From Amia ocellicauda (Eukaryota; Chordata; Actinopteri; Amiiformes; Amiidae), in assembly GCF_036373705.1 (NCBI RefSeq), contig NC_089869.1, positions 14,271,676 to 14,335,675 on the forward strand: DNA of 64,000 bases. Direction: 5' to 3'. The number at the start of each line of letters is the position of its first letter. Position 1 is the first letter of the stretch. Below are positions 1,429-62,169 of this stretch, in pieces. Under the pieces are notes generated by a model that worked only from the letters and a program-made list of their open reading frames with translations, was not told the origin of the DNA and ran no database searches. The position numbers and the translations under genes were made by a program.

Positions 1429-7592
<6,164 letters not shown>

Positions 7593-41900: not shown

Positions 41901-43000
41901 CTTTCCAGATTACTGCCCGTATTTACCCTGCTGTGGTGCATAATCTTTGACCTTTCATGTTTAAGAAGCCTGTAACTCCATCATACTAAAGATCCATCAT
42001 CTCTACTTCCATTCTCCCCTTCTGTGCTGTGCTCTTATTTTTTCTGTTCATCCTCTTGTATTCTTCTTAGGCACTTTCTTTCTCTTTCTTGCTGGCAGGA
42101 TACTTTGAGCATGATTTTCAAAAAAGGCAAAAACAAGAAGCTGCAAAGTGATTTTTTAAGGCCTGATTTATATGAAGCAATTAATTTATGTTTTTAAAAG
42201 GTAAATACATGAAATGTTTAATATAAGCCATTTGAAAGGAGTTGATGAAGTGAAGTGAAATGACCACATTCTTATTTTTGAAAATCAGTTTTCACTCCCC
42301 TATATTCTGCTATAATCCCCTATCACTGCATGCTGTGGGCCCTGTGTTGTGCTGTGAAACCCCAATCCCAGCTCCCTGTCTCCCCCAGACAAAGATGAAT
42401 GCACCCAGTTCCCCTCTGTGTGCCCCCGCGATCGCCCGGTCTGCATCAACACCTACGGAGCCTTCAAGTGCCGCTCCAACAAGAGGTGTGGCCAGGGGTT
42501 TGAGCCCAGTGAGGATGGTACCGCCTGTGTGGGTAAGTGGCGACAGGGCTGGGGGCCAAGGCTGGGGCTGAGGCTCTAGACTTAGACGAAACGATCAGGA
42601 AATAGATGAGACACACCCTGACAGAAAGGGCAACATCACCGAGCTGCATTACACTTCATTCTCAGCTCCTTCCATTTCTGTCATGCTGCTTCCTATTACC
42701 GAGCCTAAAAGCACTCCATTCTGCGCTCTCCAGCACCCGTCACCACAAACCTCATGGGCGCACTCCAAGATCACCATGCATCTTTCTCCACGAGTGGCAT
42801 GTTTGACAGTATGTCCGAGAAAGAAGTGAGACAAACCCTTTTCTTCTCTCTCTCTCACTTTCTCCTACAGCTCAAATCGCTTACTTTGGGGGGAATCATG
42901 CTTCCTCCTCTTCCAGGCTCTCTGCCCAGCTCTCCCAGTTCTCTCTTGCTCTGTTGGGGTTCGCAGTCTGGCTCCAGGCCTGAACACGTCACTCCCTGGC

Positions 43001-49000: not shown

Positions 49001-49744
49001 AGAGCTTGGTGAGGGTATGCTACATTATAAGAGTAAGCTAGCATCCCCTGTCTCTCTTAGACATAGACGAGTGCTCTCGGGGCCTCAGCGAGTGCAATCA
49101 GAAATGTCTCAACACTCAGGGGTCCTTCTCCTGTCACTGCCATCCCGGGTACAGACTCACTGTGTCTGGCCAATGTGTGGGTGAGTTGGCCATTTTATTT
49201 CCAATAATATTCTATGAGGTATTCCACATGCTGTCCCATGACAACTTGAAAAAAAATGAGATCATGAGGTGTTTAATTAAGAAAACTGTAATGTAAACAT
49301 ACAGGAGACTGAGGTAAAATTACATTTGCATTAAAGTCATATTAGCTTATTTTACCACCAGCACAAACTGAGATCAAAACACCCAGGCACTTTCCTGTGA
49401 ATTTGCTCTTGCCTGAAGGTACAGGTAGATAACAAAAAACCATTTAAACAGAGCAGAACAGATTTCTTTTTGTTAGTTTTGTGGACTAGCTTTAATAAAC
49501 CACAGTCAACTCTATCATACACAAATGATTGCTACCCTGTGTTTTTCGCCTCCACTAGTGAGGCTATCAACATATGGGCTGATGACGTGTTCTCTGTGTA
49601 TGTGCCGTTTCAGATGTGGACGAGTGTCAGGAGCAGGCCGGAGCGTGTGAGCATGTCTGCCACAATGAGCGCGGTTCCTTCCACTGCCACTGTCACCCAG
49701 GCTTCAATCTGGCCAACGACCAGCGCCGATGCCAGAGAGCCTAG
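23725..49744 (+). CDS. CRTAC1: CRTAC1 (cartilage acidic protein 1 / LOTUS), 15 coding exons, EGF-terminated form
   Basis: Joining the fifteen exons listed separately gives 680 codons including the stop, with every junction GT/AG and phase-consistent. Domains: signal peptide (about 1-17); FG-GAP/VCBS-like repeats with calcium-binding D-x-D-G-D-G loops at about 52-58 (DVDGDGD), 111-116 (DIDGDG), 289-294 (DFNRDG), 342-347 (DFDNDN) and 401-406 (DFDGDG); ASPIC/UnbV domain (about 435-515); three six-cysteine calcium-binding EGF domains (about 549-596, 597-636, 637-677) starting DKDEC, DIDEC and DVDEC. CRTAC1 is a secreted or membrane-associated glycoprotein of cartilage and brain; the LOTUS form antagonises Nogo receptor 1 (family knowledge). 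Human CRTAC1 has one EGF domain as I recall, so the two further EGF exons are notable. Divergent from R3HCC1L, convergent with GOLGA7B. An alternative terminal exon lies at 59622. Confidence 0.95.
25933..26129 (+). CDS. CRTAC1: CRTAC1 exon 2
   Basis: Acceptor gttgttgttcag and donor TCAG|gtacgc; 197 nt, residues 65-130. It encodes YNGPNLVLKYDR and ALRDRQGNAIGVTACDIDGDG, nearly identical to human. Confidence 0.96.
26866..27002 (+). CDS. CRTAC1: CRTAC1 exon 3
   Basis: Acceptor tcccatgcaag and donor AGAAAG|gtaccc; 137 nt, residues 131-176, encoding TYSDKLFKFRNGRFEDLLSD and ending GRSVACVDRK. Confidence 0.96.
31252..31408 (+). CDS. CRTAC1: CRTAC1 exon 4
   Basis: Acceptor ctctctcttgcag and donor CACAG|gtggat; 157 nt, residues 177-228, encoding GTGRYSIYIANYASGNVG and a following EAGVNKFTG. 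Confidence 0.96.
32262..32345 (+). repeat. Possible tRNA-derived SINE head
   Basis: GATGGCTCAGG near 32262 resembles an A box, and GTTCGAATCC (32325-32334) fits the RNA polymerase III B box. Spacing and orientation fit a tRNA-derived SINE. The cloverleaf is degenerate, so an active tRNA is unlikely. The end of the element was not found. Confidence 0.35.
33174..33308 (+). CDS. CRTAC1: CRTAC1 exon 5
   Basis: Acceptor tcatatgcag and donor GCAG|gtgggt; 135 nt, residues 229-273, encoding GGRGVVVGPIVS, SDIFCDNEYGANFLF and NNGDGTFTDVA. Confidence 0.96.
34295..34440 (+). CDS. CRTAC1: CRTAC1 exon 6
   Basis: Acceptor ctttttgtgacag and donor TTCAAG|gtaagg; 146 nt, residues 274-322, encoding QHGRGVALADFNRDGKTDIV and YGNWNGPHRLFLQ. 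The same core is found in bacterial ASPIC/UnbV proteins. Confidence 0.97.
36515..36651 (+). CDS. CRTAC1: CRTAC1 exon 7
   Basis: Acceptor tctttctctcag and donor TTCAG|gtcagt; 137 nt, residues 323-367, encoding MPSPVRTVIVADFDNDNELE and VFFNNIAYRG. Confidence 0.97.
37457..37539 (+). CDS. CRTAC1: CRTAC1 exon 8
   Basis: Acceptor catgtctcttcag and donor GACGG|gtgagt; 83 nt, residues 368-395, encoding RREHADPLIEE and AAEPEGRGTG. Confidence 0.94.
38295..38395 (+). CDS. CRTAC1: CRTAC1 exon 9
   Basis: Acceptor tgctgtgctgcag and donor AACCCG|gtaagt; 101 nt, residues 396-429, encoding AVVTDFDGDGRLDLLVSHGE and AQPLSVFK. Confidence 0.96.
38576..38744 (+). CDS. CRTAC1: CRTAC1 exon 10: ASPIC/UnbV domain, first part
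   Basis: Acceptor ctctccccccacacag and donor GTCG|gtaagg; 169 nt, residues 430-485, encoding NNWLRVIPRTQFGAFARGAK and IIDGGSGYLCEMEPVAHFG. Confidence 0.97.
41120..41265 (+). CDS. CRTAC1: CRTAC1 exon 11: ASPIC/UnbV domain, second part
   Basis: Acceptor tggtccacag and donor ATTGAG|gtaggc; 146 nt, residues 486-534, encoding VEVYWPDGHSVARPLEAGEM and NSLLEISYPK. The last third is variable and acidic. Confidence 0.94.
41598..41640 (+). CDS. CRTAC1: CRTAC1 exon 12 (43-nt micro-exon)
   Basis: Acceptor ttgttgtctttcag and donor GTACAG|gtaagc, encoding CGNGFIANENGRCT (human CGQGFSQQENGHCM). Confidence 0.93.
42389..42532 (+). CDS. CRTAC1: CRTAC1 exon 13: first calcium-binding EGF domain
   Basis: Acceptor tgtctcccccag and donor GTGTGG|gtaagt; 144 nt, phase 1 to 1, residues 549-596. 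Six cysteines, with DKDEC at the start and VCINTYGAFKC in the middle. Corresponds to the single EGF domain of human CRTAC1. Confidence 0.96.
43003..43043. repeat. (CT)n microsatellite
   Basis: About twenty CT units. Confidence 0.97.
43372..43392. repeat. Short (GAA)n tract
   Basis: Seven GAA units. Confidence 0.9.
49061..49180 (+). CDS. CRTAC1: CRTAC1 exon 14: second calcium-binding EGF domain
   Basis: Acceptor gtctctcttag and donor GTGTGG|gtgagt; exactly 120 nt, phase 1 to 1, residues 597-636. It encodes DIDECSRGLSECNQKC and a following SFSCHCHPGYRL, six cysteines. A symmetric exon like this can be skipped without changing frame. Confidence 0.93.
49614..49744 (+). CDS. CRTAC1: CRTAC1 exon 15: third EGF domain with stop
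   Basis: Acceptor gtgccgtttcag, phase 1. It encodes DVDECQEQAGACEHVC and a following SFHCHCHPGFNL, six cysteines. TAG lies at 49742-49744, three residues after the last cysteine. No hydrophobic tail or GPI-type signal follows, so this form is predicted to be soluble. Confidence 0.92.
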
Positions 49745-58511: not shown

Positions 58512-59488
58512 ATAGCCTAAACTATTGGTCTCAATCCTGACACGCATAAACCCAATGAAATAGAGATAGTTTAGAAGATAGTTTAGTTGATCTTGATAGA
58601 GGATAAATGTCTATTGATTACCTCATTAAATTCAGCAGCAGGGTATCTCTATTAAAAGCTATGGCTCTATTATTCGCCAGTATAAACCCATAAGGCTGTA
58701 TTTAACAATCAGAAAATGCCTACTGCCGTGCTAACAGTGGCTGTGTACTGGATAATTGTTACTTGTAATTCCTGTGAAGGTCAATTCTACAGACAGATGG
58801 AGAGAAGGCTTCCTTCTTTCGTAAACTATTTTTGGTTACTTTAATCAAAGGTTCTGTCATAAAAGGAGGGATGAAAACTGCAGCACACAGTTTACAATAA
58901 GCCTCCAAATGGATGTGGCTCTCCAGTATGTTGGCTTTTGAATGAGGTAATGTAGAAGAGGACCTGCTTGGTCTCCCATGCCACCAGTCCTGGTCAGCAC
59001 TGGAAGAGGCATTGGTGAAGGGGAGTGAGTTCCAACAGTCTGCACCAGTTGGACAATGGCAGTGATCTAAAGCGGTTTTCATTTCTTCAATGGAAAAAAT
59101 GAGTTGTTCTATGAAAAATAGCAGCAGCGTAACAGCAGATTAATGGCACATTAGCAGGCTCTGTCTGTCCAGGAGGCCAAGGATGAGATGGACACTGGTC
59201 AGTAATGACCTGAACCTTGGTTAGGGGCCCTCCATGGCAGAGTGGAGGCACATTGGTATAGAAAAATTACTTTGCCCATACCAACTAAGGATTGCAAAGA
59301 TTCATGGGTAAATATGATCATTAGAAACATCTCATCAGCACTAACTTCACCTATAAAAACTGGAAAGTGAGATGTCCTTACGTCCACCAAAGAATAGAGA
59401 TCACCTTTTCCTAAGTGCTGCTGCTGAGGCAGATCAAAGTAGTGGATGAATTGGGGATGAATTCTTGCCCAAGGAAACGCAGCCAGTG

Positions 59489-59590
59489 AGAGGGAGGGAG
59501 AGAGAGAGAGAGAGAGGTCGGGGGTGGCGGCGAGAACACGTGTGGGTGTGTGTGAGAGAGAGATCCCCTGGCTGTGTGTGTGTGTGTTGG
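59489..59590. repeat. (AG)n and (TG)n-rich tract
   Basis: An uninterrupted AG tract (about 59498-59516) is followed by mixed GT-rich and AG-rich runs to about 59590. On the minus strand this is CA- and CT-rich sequence within the expected GOLGA7B 3' UTR. On the plus strand it lies just before the CRTAC1 alternative acceptor at 59621. Confidence 0.9.
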
Positions 59591-59621
59591 TGGGGAGGAT
59601 GCTGGGCCCCTCCCATGTCAG

Positions 59622-59872
59622 AATCTGGTGCTCTCATGTTTCAGCATGCGGATCTTGGGGAGCCTCCCGGCCCCCCTGTACCCGTACCCCTGGTGCTGCT
59701 CCTCCAGTCACCGGCCACTGCTGCTGGATGTGGAGCTGCTGCTGGAGCTGGAGCCGCTGGATCCCCGGTCCTCGAAGATGGATATCTCAATCTGAGAATT
59801 GGGTGTCAAGGACAATCAACCCTCACACTGGTCTTCCCATCTGTCAACACACCGTCCATCAGCCATCACTGA
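59622..59872 (+). CDS. CRTAC1: CRTAC1 alternative terminal exon (isoform A-like), antisense to GOLGA7B coding sequence
   Basis: Acceptor gggcccctcccatgtcag ends at 59621. The phase-1 donors of the EGF exons at 42532 and 49180 both join it in frame. It adds about 83 residues: a leading ESGALMFQHADLGEP, a Pro/Leu stretch, an Ala/Gly-rich run (TAAGCGAAAGAGAAG), then [11 protein letters not shown] and a 20-residue tail ending at TGA 59870-59872. Human CRTAC1 isoform A, as I recall it, ends with an Ala-rich run followed by APVLVDGDLNL, which supports homology. Codons 59708-59791 are exact reverse complements of GOLGA7B codons. Use of this exon in the fish is inferred, not shown. A second acceptor (tgtttcag, ending 59644) would give another frame lacking the Ala/Gly match. 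Confidence 0.7.
59708..59791 (-). CDS. GOLGA7B: GOLGA7B last coding exon, serine-rich tail
   Basis: Acceptor gacacccaattctcag just above 59791. The 27 codons encode [10 protein letters not shown], then 17 residues of which 13 are Ser, ending GR, and TGA at 59710-59708. Ser codons are only AGC, TCC and AGT. No TCA, CTA or TTA is used, which is what keeps the antisense CRTAC1 frame open. Confidence 0.94.
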   Translation of the reverse strand: MEISIFEDRGSSGSSSSSSSTSSSSGR

Positions 59873-62169
59873 CACAGTCTGGAGCAGCTCCAAGAAGGCA
59901 TGGCTGCCTTTCCACCTACCCTCACACAGATTAATTATTTTACTATCTGAAGCTATTCAAAGCTCTGATCTCTGAAAATCTAATCTCTTCAAAGTAACCC
60001 ATACTGTAAGCCTGGCCTCAAGGATGAGGGATGAGATGACGATGAAATTGAAAGGCAAACATTAATGGAGCACATATTTTTGATTGGGTACAATGGTCTG
60101 GTATTAGAAATACCACCCAAACACTAAAGAGGTAAGAGAATAACTGTTCCAAGTGGTCAATAAAGGAATATAACATTTTAAAGGGGTTATGAAAGATGCA
60201 TTTGTAGATTTGTTTGGGTGAGCAGTAGTGCTGTAAGGAAATGCGTAGACCACATATTTGCACAAGTTTTTTTTCTTATTATGCCTAGCAGCAGTTTTGT
60301 TACACTTTATAGTCCAGGGATGATTGATAGCATTTCACCAAGTTTTACTTTAGGGGAAAATATTTTAGTAGGCTAAAACTTGCATTGCTGAGCTGAGAAA
60401 TCCACAAACGGAGAAGAAAAAAAGACATCGAAATGAGAAAAACATTTAGCTGGGGATGAATCGCCATGAGAGCATGCTCTCTGGAAACCTTTCATCTGAG
60501 ATGCTACAAAAGGAACAGCTCATTTTAACATCGAACCCCATCGTTCATAGACATGGTTAACCACAGCAAAGCAGCCTGCCATTTGAAACCTTTCAAGTTT
60601 GCGGAGGGCTGGCATGTCAGGGACTCATCTGCAGCGTGGGACCACTTAGCACTGTGTGCAGAATCATGCAGTGTGAGGTGTGGTGCTGCAGGGCAGGGGA
60701 TTCGGTTTCTTCAGGACTTGACAGGGCAACAGAGTCTGCATGATGTCACCCTTTCTGAAGGGGCCAGGGACAGTTATTTATTGGATTATTCTGAAAAGCA
60801 CTGAGACAGCTGATAAGTATCTCGAGCCATCTCTGGTAATTTCTTGTTTTGTGTTGTGTGTAGTCATATAAGCTGAGGTGAATTTGGAATGCCTTCTGAT
60901 TAAATAAAAGCTTAAGTAGTCGCAGTGCCCTGTTCTCCCAAAAGGAGGTGCTGACACCAACATCATCGTGATTGATGGACAGGTGCAATTGCAGATTTAC
61001 CACTGTGATAAGTGACAACATCCTCTCTGGGTGAACTGTTGCATAGAAACAACTCTTGGAAAAAACACATTTTTCCTTAAGTCATAAACCAAAACACGTG
61101 ACAGTCCTGCTAGGGCTGTGTGATGGTCTGTTTGATATATATATATATATATATATTTGCTCATGAAATCGACAACTACCCTGAGACTAATTAATAAATT
61201 ATAGAATTTAAAAGAATGGCATATTTCTTGGAAACATTCTCGGAGAAAAGCTTATGATTACTGTACCTGGAGAGCAAAGGGTTGAGCGTAGCCAGATGGG
61301 AACTCTAGTTAAGTGCATATTAATACATGACTTTACACAGACACGCAGAAACCATTCCCTCAGACAGCTCCTTTGGGTCACCTAATATCTTCCACCCTAC
61401 ATAAAGCGTTCACTGTACGGATTTGGACTGGAGAAAAGTTGAGGGGGAGGAAGAGTTACAGGCACACAGTTCCAAGTTCAAAATACAAAAGTGTTCTATC
61501 TTTATGGCAGAAACCGTGCCTTTACAGTTCCCTAAAAACAACTGATATTGTCTTCCTGTCAGTCTCAATACAAATGATGTGCAGAAACAAAACTAAAAAC
61601 TCGATTTTGTCTGCGCGTTACACGCCACAGGGGTTGTATTGTCTGTTAGAATGGGCATGATTCTAATTCTTCAAGTGTTAGTGAAAACCCATTCACAATT
61701 AGAAAAAACCCATTGGGGGGCAGTAGTCATTATTGACAAGCTTGTATTTGTTATATTAAGGCTAGGCCTGTGATATTTCCTTCCTACTGTGACTGTGTGT
61801 GTTTTGGGACTCTCAAGTCAGGTGATAAATAACCAGAAAATCTTGTATAGAGCTTGAAAGTTTATCTTTATGGATTGTAAAGTGTTCTTGACTCTTGTAG
61901 CTCAGTTTAAATCAATGGTGAATAGCTTGACTCTGCAAGTATATTAAAGGAGCATGCATTAATAAAATAATAAACCTTAGAATATAACTACAAATGATCT
62001 GATGATTGCATTGCTCCAGGGGTGTAATGCTAGCAGGGTTTCGTGGCCTCCACCTGTTGAAGGATACAACCCTCATGCCTCTTTCAATGGGGTCTGTGAT
62101 GAGGAGCCCTCGAGGCGCGTAGATCTTCTCATTCTGCTCCTGGATGAACCTGGAGATCTTCTTCAGCAC
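59708..62169 (-). CDS. GOLGA7B: GOLGA7B, last two coding exons (partial; 5' part beyond the window)
   Basis: The exons are 62169-62068 and 59791-59708, joined phase 0 to 0, encoding the last 61 residues. The first matches [20 protein letters not shown] and the following GLLLTDPVERGMRV of vertebrate GOLGA7B with few changes. The second gives [13 protein letters not shown] and a serine-rich tail to TGA. The Ser-rich tail and the ISI-EDR core identify GOLGA7B rather than GOLGA7. GOLGA7-family proteins are palmitoylated partners of DHHC acyltransferases; GOLGA7B is reported to work with DHHC5 at the plasma membrane (family knowledge). The remaining exons, including the cysteine-rich palmitoylated segment, were not found up to 64000. 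The gene converges on CRTAC1. Confidence 0.93.
60159..60164 (+). promoter_or_regulatory. Candidate poly(A) signal for the long CRTAC1 form
   Basis: AATAAA about 290 nt after the stop of the alternative terminal exon, inside the GOLGA7B intron on the other strand. Confidence 0.45.
61135..61156. repeat. (AT)n microsatellite
   Basis: Eleven AT units. Confidence 0.95.
62068..62169 (-). CDS. GOLGA7B: GOLGA7B penultimate coding exon
   Basis: Acceptor gctctgtaacag lies just above 62169 and donor AGGGTT|gtatcc ends the exon at 62068. It is 102 nt, exactly 34 codons, encoding [20 protein letters not shown] and ending DPIERGMRV. Confidence 0.96.

Follow-up and report, generated by a model that had tools for sequence, protein, structure and literature searches.

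An antisense open frame opposite the last GOLGA7B exon of bowfin and its relation to the A-type tail of therian CRTAC1

Genes and open frames at the bowfin locus

The window (the whole stretch of 64,000 nucleotides of Amia ocellicauda DNA that was analysed) contains a convergent gene pair, with CRTAC1 on the plus strand from 23725 and GOLGA7B on the minus strand (Table 1). Identity of the CRTAC1 exons to the annotated Amia ocellicauda protein (P0001) is 100% for its initial 65 residues and for both the first and the last EGF; outside those parts identity is lower, exon-edge residues being counted in. The annotated bowfin protein ends in EGF3, and the gar protein (P0002) in EGF2 plus EGF3. A B-type terminal exon is also present, matching a sturgeon tail (P0018, 38 residues) at 71% and carrying an acceptor that scores 8.4. 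EGF2/EGF3 endings are also seen in gar, sturgeon and paddlefish proteins, and a pigeon protein (P0262) has them after B-type residues. Given this distribution among proteins, the EGF2/EGF3 ending of CRTAC1 looks old. Upstream of CRTAC1, minus-strand open frames at 5110-5400 and 4243-4422 look like part of another gene, which we take to be R3HCC1L-like; a Pfam scan of the 5110-5400 frame gave no match.

For GOLGA7B the analysis covers the last two coding exons, which the GOLGA7 chains 9oa6_B and 8hf3_B match together (E 3.9e-21 and 8.1e-21). Its stop lies about 10 kb past the last CRTAC1 exon backed by an annotated protein. At the protein level the last-exon tail is nearly identical to that of gar (P0141), and the GC content of the exon is 61%. 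The motif IEISI(Y/F)EDR is exact in 70 of the 120 listed GOLGA7B-search proteins, and a looser pattern allowing the variants seen finds it in 112 of them. As a degenerate DNA pattern, the motif had two viral-contig matches (L001, L002) and three bacterial ones (L003-L005), all of which are taken as chance.

Table 1. Exons, acceptors and repeat of the CRTAC1/GOLGA7B pair in the bowfin window
Feature	Position	Strand	Remarks
CRTAC1 first EGF_CA exon	42389-42532	+	Phase-1 end; donor TGG/GTAAGT
CRTAC1 B-type terminal exon (by similarity)	42871-42983	+	AQIAYFGGNHASS...VWLQA, then stop; reads AQIAYFGGNH...
CRTAC1 second EGF_CA exon (EGF2 cassette)	49061-49180	+	Phase 1; 70% to gar P0002 over 40 residues
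CRTAC1 third EGF (EGF3) terminal exon	49614-49744	+	100% to P0001 residues 597-639
Candidate A-type CRTAC1 terminal exon	59622-59872	+	Open frame in codon register with GOLGA7B
Competing acceptor	59645 (first base)	+	Joined to a phase-1 donor, it enters another open frame, which is longer
Competing acceptor	59708 (first base)	+	Best score of the three local acceptors; out of register
GOLGA7B last coding exon	59708-59791	-	27 codons plus TGA stop at 59710-59708
6/18-base tandem repeat	59718-59759		Source of most of the GOLGA7B Ser tail; antisense reads Ala/Gly
GOLGA7B penultimate coding exon	62068-62169	-	Phase 0 at both ends; joins the last exon in phase

Opposite the GOLGA7B tail, the plus strand carries the open frame that the first-pass annotation of this DNA had singled out. 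It starts G/AA at 59622, stays open for 83 codons and stops at 59870-59872. Two statements of that annotation are borne out: the last coding exon of GOLGA7B (59708-59791) lies wholly inside this frame, and the codon table over the exon puts the two frames in exact register. Every plus-strand codon there is the reverse complement of one GOLGA7B codon, from the TCA (Ser) that faces the TGA stop to the AAT that faces the first ATT. The same annotation had the frame spliced in frame from CRTAC1; the phases agree, because the phase-1 donors at 42532 and 49180 both fit an acceptor at 59620/59621, which leaves the stretch a candidate exon.

A stretch of 90 bases here holds three fair acceptors, with first bases at 59622, 59645 and 59708 and rough scores of 4.5, 3.6 and 5.9 on an approximate matrix. 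Of these, 59622 alone is in phase (one in three, the chance expectation), and the top scorer, 59708, is out of phase. The 59622 site ranks 120 of 4157 AG sites. It falls inside the range of real sites, since the nine acceptors assigned to CRTAC1 score from 2.4 to 10.8, that of the EGF3 exon 2.5; a further probable exon scores 2.0. The frame entered from 59645 and 59708 is the longest open frame listed locally (59461-59934). Runs of GA and TG dinucleotides occupy 59488-59587, directly upstream of the candidate acceptor. An AATAAA at 60159, downstream of the candidate exon, says nothing either way about a terminal exon.

A-type tails and predicted double coding in therian mammals

Which CRTAC1 proteins carry an A-type tail was surveyed among listed representatives of 90% clusters. 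The first protein search comprised the best 120 of 2720 CRTAC1-search proteins, and a tail-directed search, which included words of the bowfin tail, comprised 68 proteins at E up to 10 (497 candidates); the tail survey covers 178 different CRTAC1 proteins listed. The A tail is found in 11 of these, from 9 species, all therian: macaque, Piliocolobus, Mirounga, Sarcophilus, Monodelphis, Manis javanica (three models), Dama and two Myotis. All 11 belong to the 68 proteins of the tail-directed search. By script rules, the other endings among the same 178 are 122 with the B-type pattern, 5 with EGF2/EGF3 and 40 otherwise. The A tail was not found in the listed CRTAC1 proteins of platypus, birds, frog, newt, caecilian, shark, ray and ray-finned fishes; bowfin or gar A isoforms could be hidden within the clusters of P0001 (5 members) or P0002 (9 members), and its absence among listed cluster representatives is not proof of absence. 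The A tail that the first-pass annotation had cited for human is present in macaque and other therians, the species compared here.

Double coding can be assessed at the protein level with a residue-pair test, which asks whether any codon for one residue, when reverse-complemented, encodes the other. Uniformly taken residue pairs are compatible in 13% of cases. Each A tail was set against the best of 11 GOLGA7B tails from related species. The tails of Myotis myotis and Myotis lucifugus are compatible with Eptesicus GOLGA7B at 38 of 38 residue pairs, that of Monodelphis with Gracilinanus GOLGA7B likewise at 38 of 38, and those of macaque and Piliocolobus with rabbit GOLGA7B at 37 of 37. In the perfect fits, the residue that faces the GOLGA7B stop is Ser. 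Eptesicus and Gracilinanus are from the same families as Myotis and Monodelphis, respectively. Best-partner fits elsewhere are 36/37 for Sarcophilus and Dama, 33/38 for Mirounga and 33/37 for Manis, tail lengths differing in the last two.

On a wider grid, the 11 A tails were compared with 31 GOLGA7B tails that included several bird and reptile sequences. It yields 7 perfect pairs among 341, and the median per A tail lies between 0.86 and 0.89. In-register values on this grid go down to 0.78, below the highest value in any other register tried (0.83). When the macaque stretch is shuffled 20,000 times, the mean is 18.4 compatible pairs and the maximum 28, against 37 observed of 37. For the Ser/Gly part alone, the 28 observed compare with a mean of 21.6 and a maximum of 27; taken by itself, this low-complexity part is therefore weaker evidence.

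Judged by these protein comparisons, an in-register coding overlap between CRTAC1-A and GOLGA7B, extending over the last GOLGA7B exon and its stop, is a well-supported prediction for therian mammals. By the residue-pair fit it spans about 37 codons, codon against codon. The proposal that the A tail is the antisense of GOLGA7B is thus supported at the protein level for therians (38/38, 38/38 and 37/37), and in bowfin the likeness is passive.

Origin of the bowfin frame

The bowfin register frame encodes an Ala/Thr-rich segment followed by PVLxDGxLNL, which is not diagnostic of CRTAC1-A, because the GOLGA7B sequence forces it. The residues that bowfin shares with the macaque sequence APVLVDGDLNL face IEISI(Y/F)EDR of GOLGA7B, and the final Leu of the tail faces the CAG of the GOLGA7B acceptor. 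The bowfin likeness to PVLVDGDLNL thus follows from conservation of IEISI(Y/F)EDR together with the acceptor CAG.

Two Manis pentadactyla models (P0117, P0246) read what is apparently the same exon in a frame unlike that of other mammals, perhaps through an annotation error or another splice path. The P0117 segment GPRRWKSRSA matches bowfin in the same wrong frame at 7 of 10 residues, against 8 of 11 for the register frame. Since the wrong frame matches pangolin about as well, antisense likeness of this kind needs no translation of the register frame. The pangolin frame is also the one that a bowfin CRTAC1 read-through would enter if it were spliced into 59645 or 59708, with a tail that is unrelated or non-coding and lies opposite GOLGA7B. 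The top score of 59708 and the length of the entered frame would suit such splicing; the acceptor scores are rough, however, and this route is regarded as highly improbable.

The position of the therian splice site bears on whether bowfin could share it. Most therian tails start G-TLGQ or similar and then have the Ser opposite the GOLGA7B stop, which puts the therian acceptor 14 bases upstream of the complement of that stop. At the corresponding bowfin position (59692-59693), assuming no indel between, there is GG and no AG. The LG..PGP pattern common to bowfin (LGEPPGPP) and macaque (LGQSPGPRP) was considered as homology and rejected, as the pieces misalign once the sequences are anchored on the GOLGA7B stop; with that anchor, macaque QSP aligns with bowfin QSP (59705-59713).

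These observations weigh on the reading of 59622-59872 as a real bowfin CRTAC1 terminal exon, ancestral to bony vertebrates and lost or unannotated outside therians. In its favour are the in-phase acceptor with its fair score, the 83 open codons from that acceptor to the stop, the matching tail residues and the AATAAA at 60159. However, the tail was not found in the listed fish, amphibian, bird and platypus proteins, the annotated bowfin CRTAC1 has a different last exon, and the acceptor is off the mammalian position; moreover, GOLGA7B dictates the matching residues and the chance of an open frame is not small (16%, see below). Such an exon is unlikely. The fuller scenario seems very unlikely: register double coding would go back to the ancestor of bony vertebrates, bowfin CRTAC1 would be spliced into 59622, and both bowfin and therians would have retained a secreted A-type form for more than 400 million years, while in other lineages it was lost or is unannotated. 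The origin before the fish-tetrapod split that had been proposed for the arrangement is accordingly not upheld, given an A tail restricted to therians among the 178 listed proteins, the GG at the acceptor position and the other annotated ending in bowfin.

How readily the register frame might stay open by chance was estimated from 5000 synonymous versions of the GOLGA7B tail, with codons drawn from 501 CRTAC1 codons of the window. The share of draws with an open frame was 16% for the register frame, 100% and 19% for the other two frames, and 1.8% for all three at once. In bowfin, the plus strand is open in all three frames across the last GOLGA7B exon. Because this observed state makes up only 1.8% of draws, the null describes the exon poorly; it is imperfect in that the repeat and the composition are not modelled well.

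The first-pass annotation held that the frame survives because the GOLGA7B tail avoids TCA, CTA and TTA. There is indeed no TCA among its 14 Ser codons, but this carries little weight: a tail without Leu has no place for CTA or TTA, and 16% of draws are open anyway. Selection on GOLGA7B synonymous sites, keeping the register frame open across vertebrates because CRTAC1-A is needed, would account for the missing TCA, and also for PVLVDGDL being almost invariant in the 9 A-tail species though the GOLGA7B codons could vary. The Ser tail is mostly tandem repeat, however, and the compared mammals are fairly close relatives; together with the share of open draws, this leaves such selection with very little probability.

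The explanation that we favour, and hold to be quite probable, is that bowfin 59708-59791 is the last exon of GOLGA7B with the antisense frame as its passive mirror, and that an ancestor of therians exonized this mirror. In bowfin, the mirror frame would be a passive product of a conserved, repeat-encoded and GC-rich GOLGA7B exon, and it most likely is not translated as CRTAC1. As for coding on both strands there, the register frame is open, the other two plus-strand frames are open too, and no fish A form is listed. In stem therians, a 3' splice site might have arisen in a CRTAC1 read-through transcript shortly past the GOLGA7B stop, by which the mirror frame would have become the low-complexity terminal exon of secreted CRTAC1-A. 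We infer this exonization step and its date; the anatomy of the bowfin locus and the protein-level compatibility of the mammalian tails are observed. More generally, where the sense protein is conserved, finding similar antisense open frames in distant species is no evidence that they are translated.

Comparison with known antisense overlaps

In human, the CRTAC1 and GOLGA7B genes overlap, and the CRTAC1 C-terminus comprises 56 low-complexity, O-glycosylated residues (PMC10477339); the available part of that account mentions neither a coding overlap nor its register. Human CRTAC1-A and CRTAC1-B have been described as splice forms, long and short (PMC8536980), whereas the bowfin exons comprise a B-type and an EGF2/EGF3 ending, the A form being a candidate only. 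Among the open-access literature matches listed, covered by their titles and the starts of their abstracts, none concerned codon-register coding of CRTAC1/GOLGA7B.

The THRA (TR-alpha2)/NR1D1 (Rev-erb-alpha) pair is the closest known comparison (PMC3047299, PMC4569393). The TR-alpha2 sequence passes through 67 codons of Rev-erb-alpha in antisense and reaches the final intron (PMC3047299). As at the present locus, the two genes are convergent neighbours, and an alternative last exon is antisense to the partner's stop and last coding exon and runs into its final intron; the THRA/NR1D1 arrangement is restricted to mammals (PMC3047299, PMC4569393), as A tails are among the listed CRTAC1 proteins. 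There are also differences. The TR-alpha2 overlap covers 67 Rev-erb-alpha codons and that of CRTAC1-A about 37 GOLGA7B codons; the former is reported as unique to eutherians, whereas annotated CRTAC1-A tails include those of marsupials; and the GOLGA7B tail is of low complexity, whereas the end of Rev-erb-alpha is a ligand-binding domain. If the overlap holds at the DNA level, CRTAC1-A/GOLGA7B would join TR-alpha2/Rev-erb-alpha as a clear case in mammals of an alternative last exon derived from the antisense of a neighbour's last coding exon.

Platypus is reported to be without TR-alpha2 and yet to have an antisense frame without stops, and in platypus and birds the virtual antisense translation resembles TR-alpha2 (PMC4569393). 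The open antisense frame of bowfin resembles this stop-free frame of platypus. The bowfin locus may show what the raw material of such an exon possibly looks like before it becomes one: an open, in-register antisense frame that is there for other reasons.
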